Shown here: in pieces, positions 5,894-23,327 of the stretch
Position numbering within the stretch: the stretch's first letter is position 1
How the letters are laid out: the number at the start of each line of letters is the position of its first letter
Origin: Burkholderiaceae bacterium
Lineage (GTDB): Bacteria > Pseudomonadota > Gammaproteobacteria > Burkholderiales > Burkholderiaceae_C
DNA: 34,573 bases
Assembly: GCA_031276435.1 (NCBI GenBank)
Contig: JAISNB010000011.1
Coordinates: forward strand, 1 to 34,573
Reading direction: 5' to 3'
Position numbers and translations under genes: made by a program
Notes under the pieces: generated by a model
Databases searched by the model: none
What the model was told of the DNA's origin: nothing
Seen by the model: only the letters and a program-made list of their open reading frames with translations

Positions 5894-6271
5894 TCAGTCC
5901 CCGTCTTTGGAGCGCGAGGCCACGGCCTTGGCGATCAGCGCGTTCATGTCGGCGGCGCGCTCGGTGGTGCGGTCGAACACGAAGTGCAGTGTGGGCACGG
6001 TGTGGATGTGCAAACGTTTGAACAGGCCGTTGCGCAAAAAACCCGCCGCGGCGTTGAGCGCCTCGGTGGTCTCCTGGGCATCGCCCGCAAGCAGGCTGAA
6101 GAACACCTTGGCGTGCGCGTAGTCGGGCGTGACTTCCACGGCGTTGAGCGTGACCATGCCCACGCGCGGGTCCTTGACCTCGCGCGCGATCAGCTCGGCC
6201 AGATCGCGCTGGATCTGGTCGGCCACGCGGTAGCCGCGGTTTGGGCTGGACGATGGTTTGCGGGCTGCCAT
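5894..6271 (-). CDS. rbfA: 30S ribosome-binding factor RbfA
   Basis: [50 protein letters not shown]; located between infB and truB. Confidence 0.96.
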
Positions 6272-6342
6272 GAGAGTTGCCGATGGTGGCGCTGCTGCTG
6301 GTGGTGCGCGCCCCGCATGCATTGCGGGCGCGCGCGCCGTCG

Positions 6343-9330
6343 TCAGAGCGTGCGGGCGATTTCCTTGATTTCAAAGAGTTCGAGCTGGTCGCCTTCCCGG
6401 ATGTCGTTGTAGCCCTTGAGCTTGATGCCGCACTCGAAGCCTTCCTTGACTTCGCGCACATCGTCTTTCATGCGCTTGAGCGACTCAAGCTCGCCGGTGT
6501 AGATCACCACGTTGTCGCGCAGCAGGCGGAAGTGCGCGTCGCGCCGCACCAGGCCATGCGTGACCATGCAGCCGGCAACAACGCCAATCTTGGAAGCGGT
6601 GAACACGGTGCGGATTTCCGCCGTGCCGATGACTTCCTCGCGCTGCTCGGGCGAGAGCATGCCCGCCATGGCGGCCTTGAGGTCGTCCACCGCGTCGTAA
6701 ATGATGTTGTAGTAGCGAATCTCGATGCCGTTGGCTTCGGCCAGCTTGCGCGCGCCCGCCTCGGCGCGCGTGTTGAAGCCAATAATCAGCGCCTTGGAAG
6801 CGACGGCCAGATTGACATCGCTCTCGCTGATGCCGCCCACAGCCGCGTACACCACTTGCACCTTGACCTCGCTGGTCGAGAGCTTTTGCAGCGATCCGGT
6901 CAGCGCCTCTTGCGAGCCTTGCACGTCGGCCTTGACGATGATGGGCAGCGTCTTGACCTCGCCCGCCGTCATGTCGGAGAACATGTTCTCCAGCTTGGCC
7001 GCCTGCTGCTTGGCCAGCTTGGTGTTGCGGAACTTGCCCGCGCGGTAGGTGGCGATTTCGCGGGCGCGGCGCTCGTCGCTGAGCACCATGAATTCGTCGC
7101 CCGCCTGCGGCACCTCGCTCAAACCCTGGATTTCAACCGGGATGGACGGGCCAGCCAGCGCCACCTGTTTGCCGTTTTCGTCGAGCATGGCGCGCACGCG
7201 GCCAAAGGTTTGCCCGGCCAGCACCACGTCGCCCGTCTTGAGCGTGCCCGACTGCACCAGCACGGTGGTCACTGGGCCGCGCCCCTTGTCGAGCCGCGCT
7301 TCAATGATCAGGCCCTTGGCCGCGGCCTGCACCGGCGCTTTCAGCTCCAGCACCTCGGCTTGCAGCAGCACTTTTTCAAGCAGTTCGTCAATGCCCTGCC
7401 CGGTCTTGGCGGAAACGGGCACAAAGAGCGCTTCGCCGCCGAATTCCTCAGGCACGACCTCTTCGGCCACAAGCTCGTTGCGCACGCGGTCGATGTTGGC
7501 GTCGGGCTTGTCGATCTTGTTGATGGCCACCACGATGGGCACGCCAGCGGCCTTGGCGTGTTTGATGGCTTCCCGGGTCTGGGGCATCACGCCGTCGTCG
7601 GCGGCCACCACCAGAATCACGATGTCGGTGGCCTGCGCGCCGCGCGCGCGCATGGCGGTAAAGGCCTCGTGGCCCGGCGTGTCCAGGAAAGACACCACGC
7701 CGCGCGGCGTTTCCACGTGGTAGGCGCCAATGTGCTGCGTGATGCCGCCCGCCTCGCCCGCGGCCACTTTGGCGCGGCGGATGTAGTCCAGCAGCGAGGT
7801 CTTGCCGTGGTCGACATGGCCCATCACGGTGACCACCGGCGCGCGCGGCAGCAATTCAGCCGATTGCGCCTGCACCTCTTCCTCGGTAAAGGCTTCGGGA
7901 TCGTCCAGCGTGGCAACCACGGCCTTGTGGCCCAGCTCTTCGACCACGATCATGGCGGTGTCCTGATCGAGCGGCTGGTTGATGGTGACCATTTGCCCGA
8001 ACTTCATCAACTGCTTGATGACTTCAGAGGCCTTGATCGCCATCTTGTGCGCCAACTCGGCCACGGTGATGGTCTCTGGCACGTGCACTTCGATGACGCG
8101 GTGTTCAACCGGCGCCGCCGCTGGTGCTGGCGCTGGCGCGGCATCGCGCGCGCCCCGGCGGTTGCGCTGCCCGCCGCCGCGCCAGTTGTTGCGGCCCGCG
8201 CCGCCGCCGTCGCTGCGGTTGGGCAGGCTTTTTTTCTGGGCCGGATCGCCCGCCCAACTGGAAGACAGCTTGGCCGATTTGACCTCTTTGGCCGCGCCCG
8301 CCGCTGCGCTGGCGGCTGGTTTGCGCGCCGCTGGCGCTCCGCCCTTGGCGTCCTTGCCCGCCGCTGCGCCCTTGGCCGCGCCCGACGGCCTTTTGGCTAC
8401 GAGCACCTTGCGCGGCTTGCTGAGCATGTCGCGGATGGCCTCGGCCTCGGCCAGCGCCTTGCGGCGGCGCTCTTCCATTTCGCTGGATCGCTCGGCCTCG
8501 TCGCTGGCGGCAGGGGCGGTGGTGGTGGCAGCAGCGGCTGGCTCTGCCACCTTGCTGGCCCTGGGTTTGGCGCTGGTGGCCGCTGCGGCGGCAGCGGTTT
8601 GCCCGGCTGGCGCTGTTGGCTCGGGCTTTGCTGGCCTGGGGCGCGCGTCTTTGTCTTTGTCTTTGGATGCCGCCGCCTGCTTTTTCGCCGTGGCTTTGGC
8701 GGCGGAAGCGGCTGCGGTGGCCGTGGCTGCGGCTGGTTCAGCCGCAGTCACTTGCGGCACTTCGGCGGCAGCAGGCGGCCTGGACTTGCCGGATTTGGAC
8801 TTTGGCTTGGCCTCGCTCTCGCCCCCGGTTTTTTGCGCGGCCTTGTTTTTCCGGTCTTCTTCCTGACGGCGAATCAGTTCGGCCTGGCGACGCGCTTCTT
8901 CCTCGCGGCGCGCGCGCTCGGCCTCGTCGATGACAACTGGCTGCTGCTGCTGCGCGGCTGGCGCGGCAGCGGCTGGCGGCTGCGCCTGGGCAGATGGCTC
9001 GGGCGCGGCGGTGGTGGCAGCGGCTTCGCCATCGCGTTTGACGAAGGTGCGCTTTTTGCGCACTTCCACCTGAATGGTGCGCGCCTTGCCGGTGGCGTCG
9101 GCCTGCTTGATTTCGCTGGTGGACTTGCGCATCAGCGTGATCTTCTTGCGCGCGCTTTCTTGCGCGCCGTGGCTGGACTTGAGGTGGCTGAGCAATTGCT
9201 GTTTGTCGGCTTCTGTCAGTGCGTCGCTGGCGGCCTTTTTCTTGACGCCAGCGGCCTGCAACTGCTCCAGCAGCACATTCGTGGGTTTGTTGAGTTCATT
9301 GGCGAACTCTGCGACAGTGGTATTTGACAT
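6343..9330 (-). CDS. infB: Translation initiation factor IF-2
   Basis: [62 protein letters not shown]-terminal IF2 domain [14 protein letters not shown]. Confidence 0.98.
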
Positions 9331-9354: not shown

Positions 9355-10842
9355 TTACTCGGAATCATCGGTGAACCAGTGTTCACGCGCCTTGAGGATG
9401 AGCGCGCTGGCCTCTTCCTGTGCCTGGCCCGTGATCTCGGTCAGTTCATCAACCGCCAGATCGGCCAGGTCATCGCGGGTTTTCACGCCAGCATCGGCCA
9501 GTTTTTCTATCAGTTCCGTGGTCAGTCCCTCAAGGCTGACCAGATCCTGCGAGACGGCACTGACTTTTTCCTCGCGCGCGATTTCCATGGTCAGCAATGC
9601 GTCCTTGGCGCGGGCGCGCAACTCGTTGACGGTTTCCTCGTCGAAGCCCTCGATGTCGAGCATCTCGTGCAAGGGCACGTAGGCCACTTCTTCAAGGTTG
9701 GTGAAGCCTTCGTTGATGAGGATGTCGGCAATCTCCTGATCCACATCGAGTTTTTCCATGAACAACTGGCGCACCGAGGTGGTTTCCTGCTCCTGTTTCT
9801 GGGCCGACTCCTCGGCGTCCATGATGTTGATCTTCCAGCCGGTCAGATCAGAGGCCAGGCGCACGTTCTGCCCGCCACGGCCAATGGCGATGGCCAGGTT
9901 TTCCTCGTCCACCACCACGTCCATGACGTGTTTTTCCTCGTCCACCACAATGGATTGCACATTCGCCGGGGCCAGCGCGCCAATGACAAACTGCGCCGGG
10001 TCTTCCGACCACAGCACGATGTCCACGCGCTCGCCAGCCAGTTCGTTGGTCACGGCGTTGACGCGCGTGCCGCGCACGCCCACACAGGTGCCGATGGGGT
10101 CGACCCGCTTGTCGTGCGAGACCACCGCGATCTTGGCGCGCGACCCGGGATCGCGCGCGCAGGATTTGATCTCCAGCAGCCCCTGCTCGATCTCTGGCAC
10201 CTCCTGGCGGAACAGCTCCACCATGAACTCGGGCGCCGAGCGCGACAGCAAAATGGGCGCGCCGCGCAAGGTCAGATCCACTTCCATGATCATGGCGCGC
10301 ACGCGGTCACCGCTGCGCAGGTTTTCCTTGGGAATCATCTCGCTGCGCTTGAGCCGGCCTTCCACGCGGCCCGCCTCCACAATGACGTCGCCCTTGTCCA
10401 TGCGCTTGACCGTGCCGCTGAAAATCTTCTCGCCCCGGCTCATGAAGTCGTTGAGCAGCATCTCGCGCTCGGCGTCGCGGATTTTTTGCAGGATCACCTG
10501 CTTGGCCGCCATCGCGCCAATGCGCCCGATGGGCACCGACTCCACCGGCTCCTCGATGTATTCATCCACCTCGATGTCGGGAATTTGCTCGCGCGCCTCG
10601 AACAGCAGGATCTCCTGATCGGGCAATTGCAGCCCCGCCTCGTCAGGCACCACGCGCCAGCGGCGAAACGTTTCGTACTCGCCCGTATCGCGGTCGACGG
10701 CCATGCGGATGTCCACATCGCCCGCGTACAGCTTCTTGGTCGCCTGCGCCAAAGCCGCTTCCACAGCGCCAATCACCACATCGCGCTCGACATTCTTGTC
10801 GCGCGAGATGGCGTCCACCAGCATCAACAATTCTCGATTCAT
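9355..10842 (-). CDS. nusA: Transcription termination/antitermination protein NusA
   Basis: [32 protein letters not shown]1/KH domains including [17 protein letters not shown]. Confidence 0.97.
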
Positions 10843-10894
10843 CTTTTTTACCACTTCCGTGTATCTCTTGCGCCCTGTCCTCCGGGCGCGGCTT

Positions 10895-11563
10895 TCAGCC
10901 CTTTTGCAAAGTCGCCGCGTCGCGGCGGCCCTTGAAATTCACAACAGGCGCCAGCCGCGCCTCTTTCAACTCGTCCAACTCAAAATCCATGGCGTACTCG
11001 GGCGGCGGCGCGCGCCTGGCGCTCACCCGCTGCCCCGGCTTGACCCTGGGCGCGTCCTGCCAGACGATGCGCCAGCGGCTTGGCTGCTCGCTGCGGCGCA
11101 GCACGCCCCGGAATTTCTTGCGATTGGCCGCCACCTGCTGCTGCGGCGCGCCCGCCGCCACAGCCTGCGCGCTGGCGCCGCTGCCAACAGGGTCCTTGAG
11201 CGTGATGTCAATCACCTCGCCCAGAAAGCGTTCAAAATCCAGCGCGTGCCGCAAAGGCCGGTCAATGCCGGGCGAAGAAACCTCAAGCCGCCGGTAATCG
11301 ACGTTTTGCACTTCCAGCACGTACTGAAGCTGGCGCGTCACGCGCTCGCAATCGTCCACCGTGATGGCCATCGCCTCGGATTGCGGCGCGGCGGCGGCGG
11401 CGTCAGCGTCAGCCGCATCGGACGCGGGCGACCAGGGCCAGTCCACCGTCACGCGCAGCAGACCGCCAGCGGATCGTTCAACATCCACCAGATCGAGGCC
11501 GAGACCGCGCACGGTATCGCCAATCACCTGTTGCAAACTTGTTGCGCCAGCCAATGTCGCCAC
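10895..11563 (-). CDS. rimP: Ribosome maturation factor RimP (GTG start)
   Basis: [44 protein letters not shown]; immediately upstream of nusA; start codon reads GTG at 11563-11561. Confidence 0.93.
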
Positions 11564-11590
11564 ATTCCCTCAGAAGTCAGCCCAAAACCC

Positions 11591-11623
11591 AAAAAAAATG
11601 GGCGGTTGGATACCCGCCCATTT
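11591..11623 (-). terminator. Intrinsic terminator-like hairpin in the rimP-nusA-infB leader
   Basis: Minus strand AAATGGGCGG-GTATCCAA-CCGCCCATTT followed by TTTTT (10-bp perfect stem, 8-nt loop, T-run of 8 including stem bases), 28 nt before the rimP start. Confidence 0.75.
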
Positions 11624-11639
11624 GGTCGTGAACCGTGCG

Positions 11640-11668
11640 ATTTTAGCACGCCAGCATGTCCTTGTCAC
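11640..11668 (-). promoter_or_regulatory. sigma70 promoter for the rimP operon
   Basis: Minus strand GTGACA (11668-11663), 17 bp spacer, TAAAAT (11645-11640). Confidence 0.6.
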
Positions 11669-11670
11669 CC

Positions 11671-11697
11671 GCTTTGCGGCGCGCGTTGCCGCAAAGC
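11671..11697. repeat. Perfect 10-bp inverted repeat in the rimP/trhP divergent intergenic region
   Basis: GCTTTGCGGC-GCGCGTT-GCCGCAAAGC. Confidence 0.8.
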
Positions 11698-11736: not shown

Positions 11737-13182
11737 ATGAGTTTCAAAGCCCCTGAATTGCTGCTGCCCGCAGGCAGCCTGGAGAAAATGCGCGCGGCTT
11801 TTGATTTTGGCGCCGACGCGGTTTACGCCGGGCAGCCGCGCTACAGCCTGCGCGCGCGCAACAACGAATTCCGCCTGGAGCAGATTGCCGCTGGCATTGC
11901 CGAGGCGCACGCGCGCGGCAAGCGGTTTTTTGTGACCAGCAACCTGATTGCCCACAACGACAAGGTGCGCACCTGTCTGCGCGATCTGGCGCCTGTGGTG
12001 GCGCTGGGGCCTGACGCGCTCATCATGGCCGATGCAGGACTGATCATGCAGGTGCGCGAGCAATGGCCGCATGTGCCGGTGCACCTATCGGTGCAGGCCA
12101 ACACCACCAACTGGGCTGCGGTCAAGTTCTGGCAGCGCGCGGGGCTGAGCCGCATCATTCTCTCGCGCGAGCTGAGCCTGGCCGAAGTGGCGCAAATCCG
12201 CCAGGAATGCCCGGACATCGAGTTGGAAGTGTTTGTGCACGGCGCGCTGTGCATCGCCTATTCGGGCCGCTGCCTGCTCAGCGGCTACTTCAACCGGCGC
12301 GATTCCAACCAGGGCACTTGCACCAACGCCTGCCGCTGGAATTACAAGACGCAATGCGCCAGCGCAGACCCCAACACCGGCGATGCCCTGGCCCGATTCG
12401 CCGCCGCTCAAGATGCCGCTTGCGCCGCCGGGCCGGGCGAGGGCGCGCGGCAAAATCCGGCGGCCTGCGGCGACGGCCAGCGCCACCGGGCCGCTGATGC
12501 GGTGTACCTGATCGAGGAAGAAGGCCGTCCGGGCCAGTGGATGCCCATCATGGAAGACGAGCACGGCACCTACATCATGAACAGCCGCGATTTGCGCGCC
12601 GTGGAACTGGTGGAAAAACTGGTGCACATTGGCGTGGATTCGCTCAAGATCGAAGGGCGCACCAAAAGCCTGTACTACGTGGCGCGTACCGCGCAAACGT
12701 ACCGCCGCGCCATCGACGACGCCGTGGCGGGGCGGCCATTTGACCCCGCGCTCATCACCGAACTGGAAGGGCTGGCCAATCGCGGCTATACATCGGGCTT
12801 TCTGGAACGCCGTCCGGCGCAGGATTACCAGAACTACGAAACCGGCCACTCCGTGGCGCAGCGCAGCCAGTTTGTGGGCCAGGTGCGCGCCGTGCAAGAG
12901 GGCGGCTGGGCTGAAGTGGAAACCAAAAACCGCTTTGCCGTGGGCGATACGCTGGAAATCATTCACCCCGGCGGCAACCGCACCATCACGCTGGGGGCCA
13001 TGAAAGACGCTGCCGGTCAGGCCATTGAGGTGGCCCTGGGCAACCCCATGCGCGTGTGGATTGCGCTGGGTGGCGGCCCTGCCGATGGCGCGCTGATTGC
13101 GCGGCTGCTGCCGCCACCTGCGCGGCCAGCACAAGACAAGGCCGATTCGCATCCGCCGTTGCCGCGCCCGCAAGGCGTTTGA
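11737..13182 (+). CDS. trhP: tRNA 5-hydroxyuridine modification protein TrhP (YegQ, peptidase U32 family)
   Basis: MSFKAPELLLPAGSLEKMRAAFDFGADAVYAGQPRYSLRARNNEF; GRCLLSGYFNRRDSNQGTCTNACRW; EDEHGTYIMNSRDLRAV. Confidence 0.93.
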   Translation: MSFKAPELLLPAGSLEKMRAAFDFGADAVYAGQPRYSLRARNNEFRLEQIAAGIAEAHARGKRFFVTSNLIAHNDKVRTCLRDLAPVVALGPDALIMADAGLIMQVREQWPHVPVHLSVQANTTNWAAVKFWQRAGLSRIILSRELSLAEVAQIRQECPDIELEVFVHGALCIAYSGRCLLSGYFNRRDSNQGTCTNACRWNYKTQCASADPNTGDALARFAAAQDAACAAGPGEGARQNPAACGDGQRHRAADAVYLIEEEGRPGQWMPIMEDEHGTYIMNSRDLRAVELVEKLVHIGVDSLKIEGRTKSLYYVARTAQTYRRAIDDAVAGRPFDPALITELEGLANRGYTSGFLERRPAQDYQNYETGHSVAQRSQFVGQVRAVQEGGWAEVETKNRFAVGDTLEIIHPGGNRTITLGAMKDAAGQAIEVALGNPMRVWIALGGGPADGALIARLLPPPARPAQDKADSHPPLPRPQGV

Positions 13183-23233: not shown

Positions 23234-23265
23234 AAAAACAAAAAGCGCGGGATCCGCCGCGCTTT
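23234..23265 (-). terminator. Terminator-like hairpin in the thrS leader
   Basis: Minus strand AAAGCGCGG-CGGATC-CCGCGCTTT followed by TTGTTTTT; 20 nt before the thrS start. Confidence 0.65.
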
Positions 23266-23327
23266 CATGTGGGTTGCCTGACTGTGATTGTTCCTGACCG
23301 CTGCAATGCTTCTGCATGGCGCCCGCT

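Follow-up and report, generated by a model that had tools for sequence, protein, structure and literature searches.

A candidate attenuator of the rimP-leader type, with NusA as its probable effector, before rimP-nusA-infB in a Burkholderiaceae bacterium and across Burkholderiales

The rimP leader and its promoter

The material is a 34,573-nt contig, JAISNB010000011.1, from assembly GCA_031276435.1 of a Burkholderiaceae bacterium; we refer to this whole stretch as the window and give positions in its coordinates. Six genes or frames follow one another on the same strand in the order rimP, nusA, infB, rbfA, a TruB-containing frame, and typA, and trhP is divergent from them because its ATG lies on the plus strand (Table 1). 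The original prediction described GTGACA and TAAAAT, spaced by 17 nt on the minus strand and followed by a perfect 10-bp hairpin with a T-run before rimP, and we find exactly this arrangement. In the promoter scan, the hexamer pair has 10 of 12 consensus matches and is the only promoter-like site between 10500 and 13000, where 0.2 are expected. The end of the -10 hexamer and the start of the hairpin are 16 nt apart, three T of the T8 run sit within the stem, and the distance from the T-run to the rimP GTG is 27 nt.

Table 1. Features of the rimP leader, its operon and the divergent neighbor in the window
Feature	Position	Strand	Basis or remark
-35-like hexamer GTGACA	11663..11668	-	sequence, promoter scan
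-10 hexamer TAAAAT	11640..11645	-	TG one base upstream, giving an extended -10 (TGcTAAAAT)
ACGACCAA box	11622..11629	-	predicted RNA start; family-conserved
Putative terminator hairpin AAATGGGCGG-GTATCCAA-CCGCCCATTT, 10 bp	11596..11623	-	arms AAATGGGCGG 11623-11614 and CCGCCCATTT 11605-11596, loop GTATCCAA; sequence, shuffles, folding, conservation
T8 run	11591..11598	-	predicted 3' end of an RNA of ~40-45 nt
GAGGG, plausible SD/ribosome-binding site of rimP	11567..11571	-	sequence
rimP, GTG start (11563-11561)	10895..11563	-	RimP models
nusA	9355..10854	-	TIGR01953, E 5.4e-119
infB	6343..9330	-	TIGR00487, E 1.5e-260
rbfA	5894..6322	-	PF02033, E 1.4e-31
trhP, ATG 11737	11737..13182	+	TrhP equivalog; divergent from rimP

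A low-stringency terminator scan found 3 candidates versus 2.4 expected and is not significant alone. With the criterion raised to a perfect stem of 9 bp or more and a T-rich tail, 5,000 dinucleotide-shuffled versions of the intergenic region and 20 shuffles of the whole window gave no instance, and the window itself holds only one other such structure, before thrS. Folding of the predicted 44-nt leader RNA gives -20.4 kcal/mol (z = -4.8), and the hairpin alone, followed by U8, gives -17.2 kcal/mol. No antiterminator or other structure excluding the hairpin was seen in the read-through fold, which keeps the hairpin and with which an outer pairing is compatible. Likewise, no sensor or aptamer domain was found upstream of the terminator, where ~10 nt lie between the predicted start and the stem, and no riboswitch, T-box, or ribosomal-protein leader in Rfam matches the site over its cut-off.

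Conservation, spacing and specificity of the hairpin

Conservation of the hairpin upstream of rimP across Burkholderiales had been named as a way of checking the original prediction. RimP was located in 285 of the 299 order genomes and 116 of the 121 family genomes, and we read the upstream DNA at 162 rimP loci from the family and the wider order. Of these 162 regions, 158 carry GGGC-N3..16-GC(C/T)C and a T-run after it, whereas shuffles give a mean of 2.95 and a maximum of 6, and the opposite strand gives 15. The four exceptions (L072, L110, L119, and L133), inspected by eye, still have a hairpin and a T-run, in which letters are changed or the T-run is broken. A run of 5 to 10 T is retained everywhere, with a median of 8 in the family. 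Within the family, 44 loci have C-G as the pair outside GGGC and 32 have T-A, both sides changing together; outside the family, TGGGC/GCCCA is near-invariant and variation affects the first pair inside it (T-A, G-C, A-T, and others). With its letters near-invariant across the order, the lower stem is fixed in sequence more than a plain terminator requires. By every sequence test used, the rimP leader hairpin is real, conserved, and under selection.

The family adds features of its own around the stem. ACGACCAA precedes it and is matched letter for letter at this site in 52 of 85 family loci; past the T-run, GGTCG is often found. The -10 hexamer starts 24 to 31 nt before GGGC in 79 of the 85 loci and exactly 25 nt before it in 40. 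In 83 of 85 loci a TANRAT box keeps almost the same distance from the hairpin; 83 boxes lie within the 10 nt between -30 and -20, versus 3 within the 90 nt between -160 and -70. Enrichment of the -10 box is also present in other families, where it is looser. A sub-variant of the hairpin carries ACCGGCCC in place of ACCGCCC in family loci such as L008, L033, L047, L127, and L148; it contains a G-G mismatch unless the stem slips, and GGGT...ACC occurs in both forms. Between this sub-variant and the standard form, two stem registers may be possible.

A genome has about one strict version of the motif, and most of these, as far as these searches indicate, lie in the rimP leader. GGGCGG-N3..9-CCGCCC-N-T6 has 54 matches in the 121 family genomes, 47 of which lie 19 to 179 nt before a RimP match, versus 1 match for the reversed control pattern. 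TGGGC-N3..12-GCCCA-T6 was found in 225 of 299 order genomes. In the part that was tallied, 73 of 89 matches, in 73 genomes, are in the rimP leader; the tally covers 75 genomes with both coordinates listed and began from genomes with a pattern match, and therefore measures specificity, not prevalence. The window's own genome has each strict pattern once, at the rimP leader site.

The neighbor upstream of rimP is not conserved in the same way. Among 82 loci, trhP lies within the fetched 1.5 kb only in the window itself, and other loci have divergent tRNA-Pro and tRNA-Arg genes upstream of rimP. The hairpin stays while the neighbor varies, which indicates that it travels with rimP and not with the neighbor. 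Because trhP is beside rimP in no other of these loci, its divergent placement seems to have arisen by a local rearrangement. At 11671-11697 on the minus strand, just upstream of the rimP -35 hexamer and in the 5' region of trhP, there is a perfect 10-bp inverted repeat, GCTTTGCGGC-AACGCGC-GCCGCAAAGC. We considered it as an operator and rejected it, as a perfect repeat of at least 8 bp is found there in 0 of 82 other family loci; it may have to do with the placement of trhP in this genome.

The published rimP-leader and the Rfam families of the region

The element corresponds in each feature tested to the rimP-leader named by Naville and Gautheret in 2010 (PMC2965389), and we assign it to that motif on its sequence features. 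In the available passages of that paper, rimP ranks first among attenuated genes, and the rimP-leader is the most ubiquitous predicted transcription attenuator, with a GGGc(...)gCCC stem and a proposed NusA feedback; the hosts named in these passages are Firmicutes and Gammaproteobacteria. As in that description, the window has a GGGc(...)gCCC terminator hairpin in the leader of rimP-nusA-infB, a T-stretch directly after the stem (T8 at 11598-11591), a terminator-to-gene distance (27 nt) within the 4 to 130 nt given for the motif, no visible antiterminator in the general form (the read-through fold keeps the hairpin), and no larger conserved element. In contrast to the motif as set out in those passages, the family has a longer stem (GGGCGG/CCGCCC), a nearly fixed promoter spacing, and the ACGACCAA box before the stem. 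Of the original proposal, a premature terminator that serves rimP has strong support from its conservation, its promoter-anchored spacing in the family, and its independence of the neighbor; the idea is not new, since the motif was named in 2010.

Precedents for autoregulation of the nusA operon in other bacteria, which the original prediction had also invoked, exist in E. coli and B. subtilis. NusA represses the operon in E. coli, as cited in PMC2965389 and PMC6511841. In B. subtilis, nusA is autoregulated by NusA-stimulated termination in the leader (Mondal 2016, as described in PMC12288461). The terminator has the same place in the nusA-operon leader there, where the NusA effect is demonstrated, whereas here it is predicted; moreover, the B. 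subtilis leader is 180 nt (as cited in PMC2965389) versus ~70 nt here. In S. agalactiae, the rimP-nusA-infB leader RNA ends 31 nt from its start as mapped by RNA-seq, short and long rimP-nusA RNAs have a common start, and NusA feedback was proposed (PMC4448216). Termination upstream of rimP-nusA-infB occurs just after the start in both cases, at a mapped 31 nt there versus a predicted ~40-45 nt here. In the main texts of the papers on B. cenocepacia start sites and B. thailandensis sRNAs, neither rimP nor nusA is named.

Two Rfam families concern this region. RF01770 (rimP, a 102-position model) describes the leader of the same operon; it matches the E. coli control genome only, with no match at its gathering cut-off of 47 bits in the window, the window's genome, or 20 relatives, a point that weighs against our assignment. 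The scan of the site gave no family over cut-off, and weak matches other than RF02420 were judged to be chance. RF02420 (Bp1_162; Bp1_Cand612_SIPHT, a Burkholderia sRNA) scores 20.4 bits in the window at 11591-11643 on the plus strand, below its cut-off of 50. It exceeds the cut-off in 3 of 299 genomes (G284, G254, and G119), all of another family, and in every case the match overlaps the rimP hairpin and runs on the opposite strand to rimP (L025 1164-1264, L029 1190-1286, and L117 315-411). The matches cover the homologous stretch from the -10 box to the T-run, which RF02420 models on the complementary strand and calls an sRNA gene: its A-run is the leader T-run, and its AUUAUAG is the leader CTATAAT. 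The simplest reading is that RF02420 describes the rimP promoter and leader read from the complementary strand, and the published sRNA may therefore be a strand misassignment. The Bp1 candidate was validated by RT-PCR on oligo(dT)-primed cDNA, a procedure that, as described, does not establish the strand (PMC3521395).

Attenuation of the operon and its possible effectors

Transcription generally starts 6 to 9 nt after the -10 box. RNA polymerase would accordingly begin ~10 nt before the hairpin, and a fraction of complexes would stop after ~40-45 nt while the rest would read through to produce the operon mRNA. Polymerase-bound NusA would favor hairpin folding and U-tract pausing; an excess of NusA would thereby lower expression of its own operon. 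The terminator is met before any rimP codon, in a leader too short for a ligand aptamer or leader peptide, and the candidates for an effector are therefore polymerase-bound factors or proteins that bind the hairpin. Among these NusA suggests itself, being encoded in the operon and supported by the literature. Our preferred reading, to which we give a probability of roughly 0.68, is that the element is a rimP-leader attenuating rimP-nusA-infB-rbfA with NusA as the most likely effector; termination in vivo, the read-through fraction, and the role of NusA are the inferred parts of it. Negative feedback by NusA on rimP-nusA-infB, as originally suggested, is plausible, fits both the precedents and the anatomy of the leader, and has prior art.

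The leader terminator could instead be constitutive, a fixed read-through fraction setting the level of the operon without dedicated NusA feedback. The strength of the window hairpin and its U8 fit this reading and mean that it might terminate without NusA, and no alternative structure excluding the hairpin was found; however, the near-invariance of the stem letters across the order exceeds what a plain terminator needs, and for E. coli and B. subtilis there are reports of NusA feedback on the operon; we consider a constitutive terminator unlikely. The same conserved letters suggest recognition, and the fixed GGGC/GCCC could serve another binding protein, such as RimP, a cold-shock protein, or a different RNA-binding protein that regulates termination in place of NusA. 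RimP feedback is mentioned as possible in PMC2965389, and PMC6511841 cites a proposal of Csp antitermination of the operon in E. coli. However, the E. coli data of PMC6511841 are inconsistent with Csp antitermination, and it is NusA that is directly precedented in B. subtilis; a non-NusA effector is thus, in our estimate, quite unlikely.

Two further readings involve an outer stem that read-through RNAs are predicted to form in the family. In one, the family leader is a start-site-anchored two-state element: terminated RNA would contain the inner stem only, and past the U-tract the conserved CGACC at the 5' end would pair with GGTCG, the resulting outer stem enclosing the U-tract and shielding the 5' end of the operon mRNA. 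In the other, the hairpin would not act as a terminator in practice but as a 5' mRNA-stabilizing structure, closed by the outer CGACC/GGTCG stem after read-through. At least 5 outer pairs are possible in 39 of 85 family loci, and two loci with ACGGCC/GGCCGT represent a compensated change. However, the pairing score of the outer stem is 6.31 versus 6.06 (maximum 6.41) when the 3' arms are dealt among genomes, a near equality that therefore speaks of conservation and not of demonstrated pairing. We consider the two-state element improbable. The purely stabilizing hairpin is further opposed by the absence of the outer stem in other families and by the 5 to 10 T kept everywhere, which stabilization does not need, and is very improbable. 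It is scarcely credible that the hairpin ends an upstream gene or belongs to an independent small-RNA gene that merely precedes rimP. RF02420 does annotate the homologous stretch as an sRNA, but on the strand opposite rimP; trhP is divergent, as the original prediction noted, and the hairpin persists as its neighbor changes.

With the preferred attenuator reading, Burkholderiales would join, with quantified conservation, the bacteria whose rimP-nusA-infB begins with a near-invariant terminator. In one family this terminator stands at a near-fixed promoter distance with almost no RNA before it, offering a natural and very short template on which to ask if NusA by itself can regulate its own operon. 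For annotation, the suggested consequence is that the Burkholderia "sRNA" family RF02420 is a misassigned strand of the rimP leader.

The window has a second strong putative terminator hairpin, AAAGCGCGG-CGGAT-CCGCGCTTT followed by TTGTTTTT, at 23240-23267 on the minus strand, directly before thrS and overlapped by a short frame. Similar GCGCGG hairpins precede thrS in most of the genus members read, and the structure may end an upstream gene or attenuate thrS.
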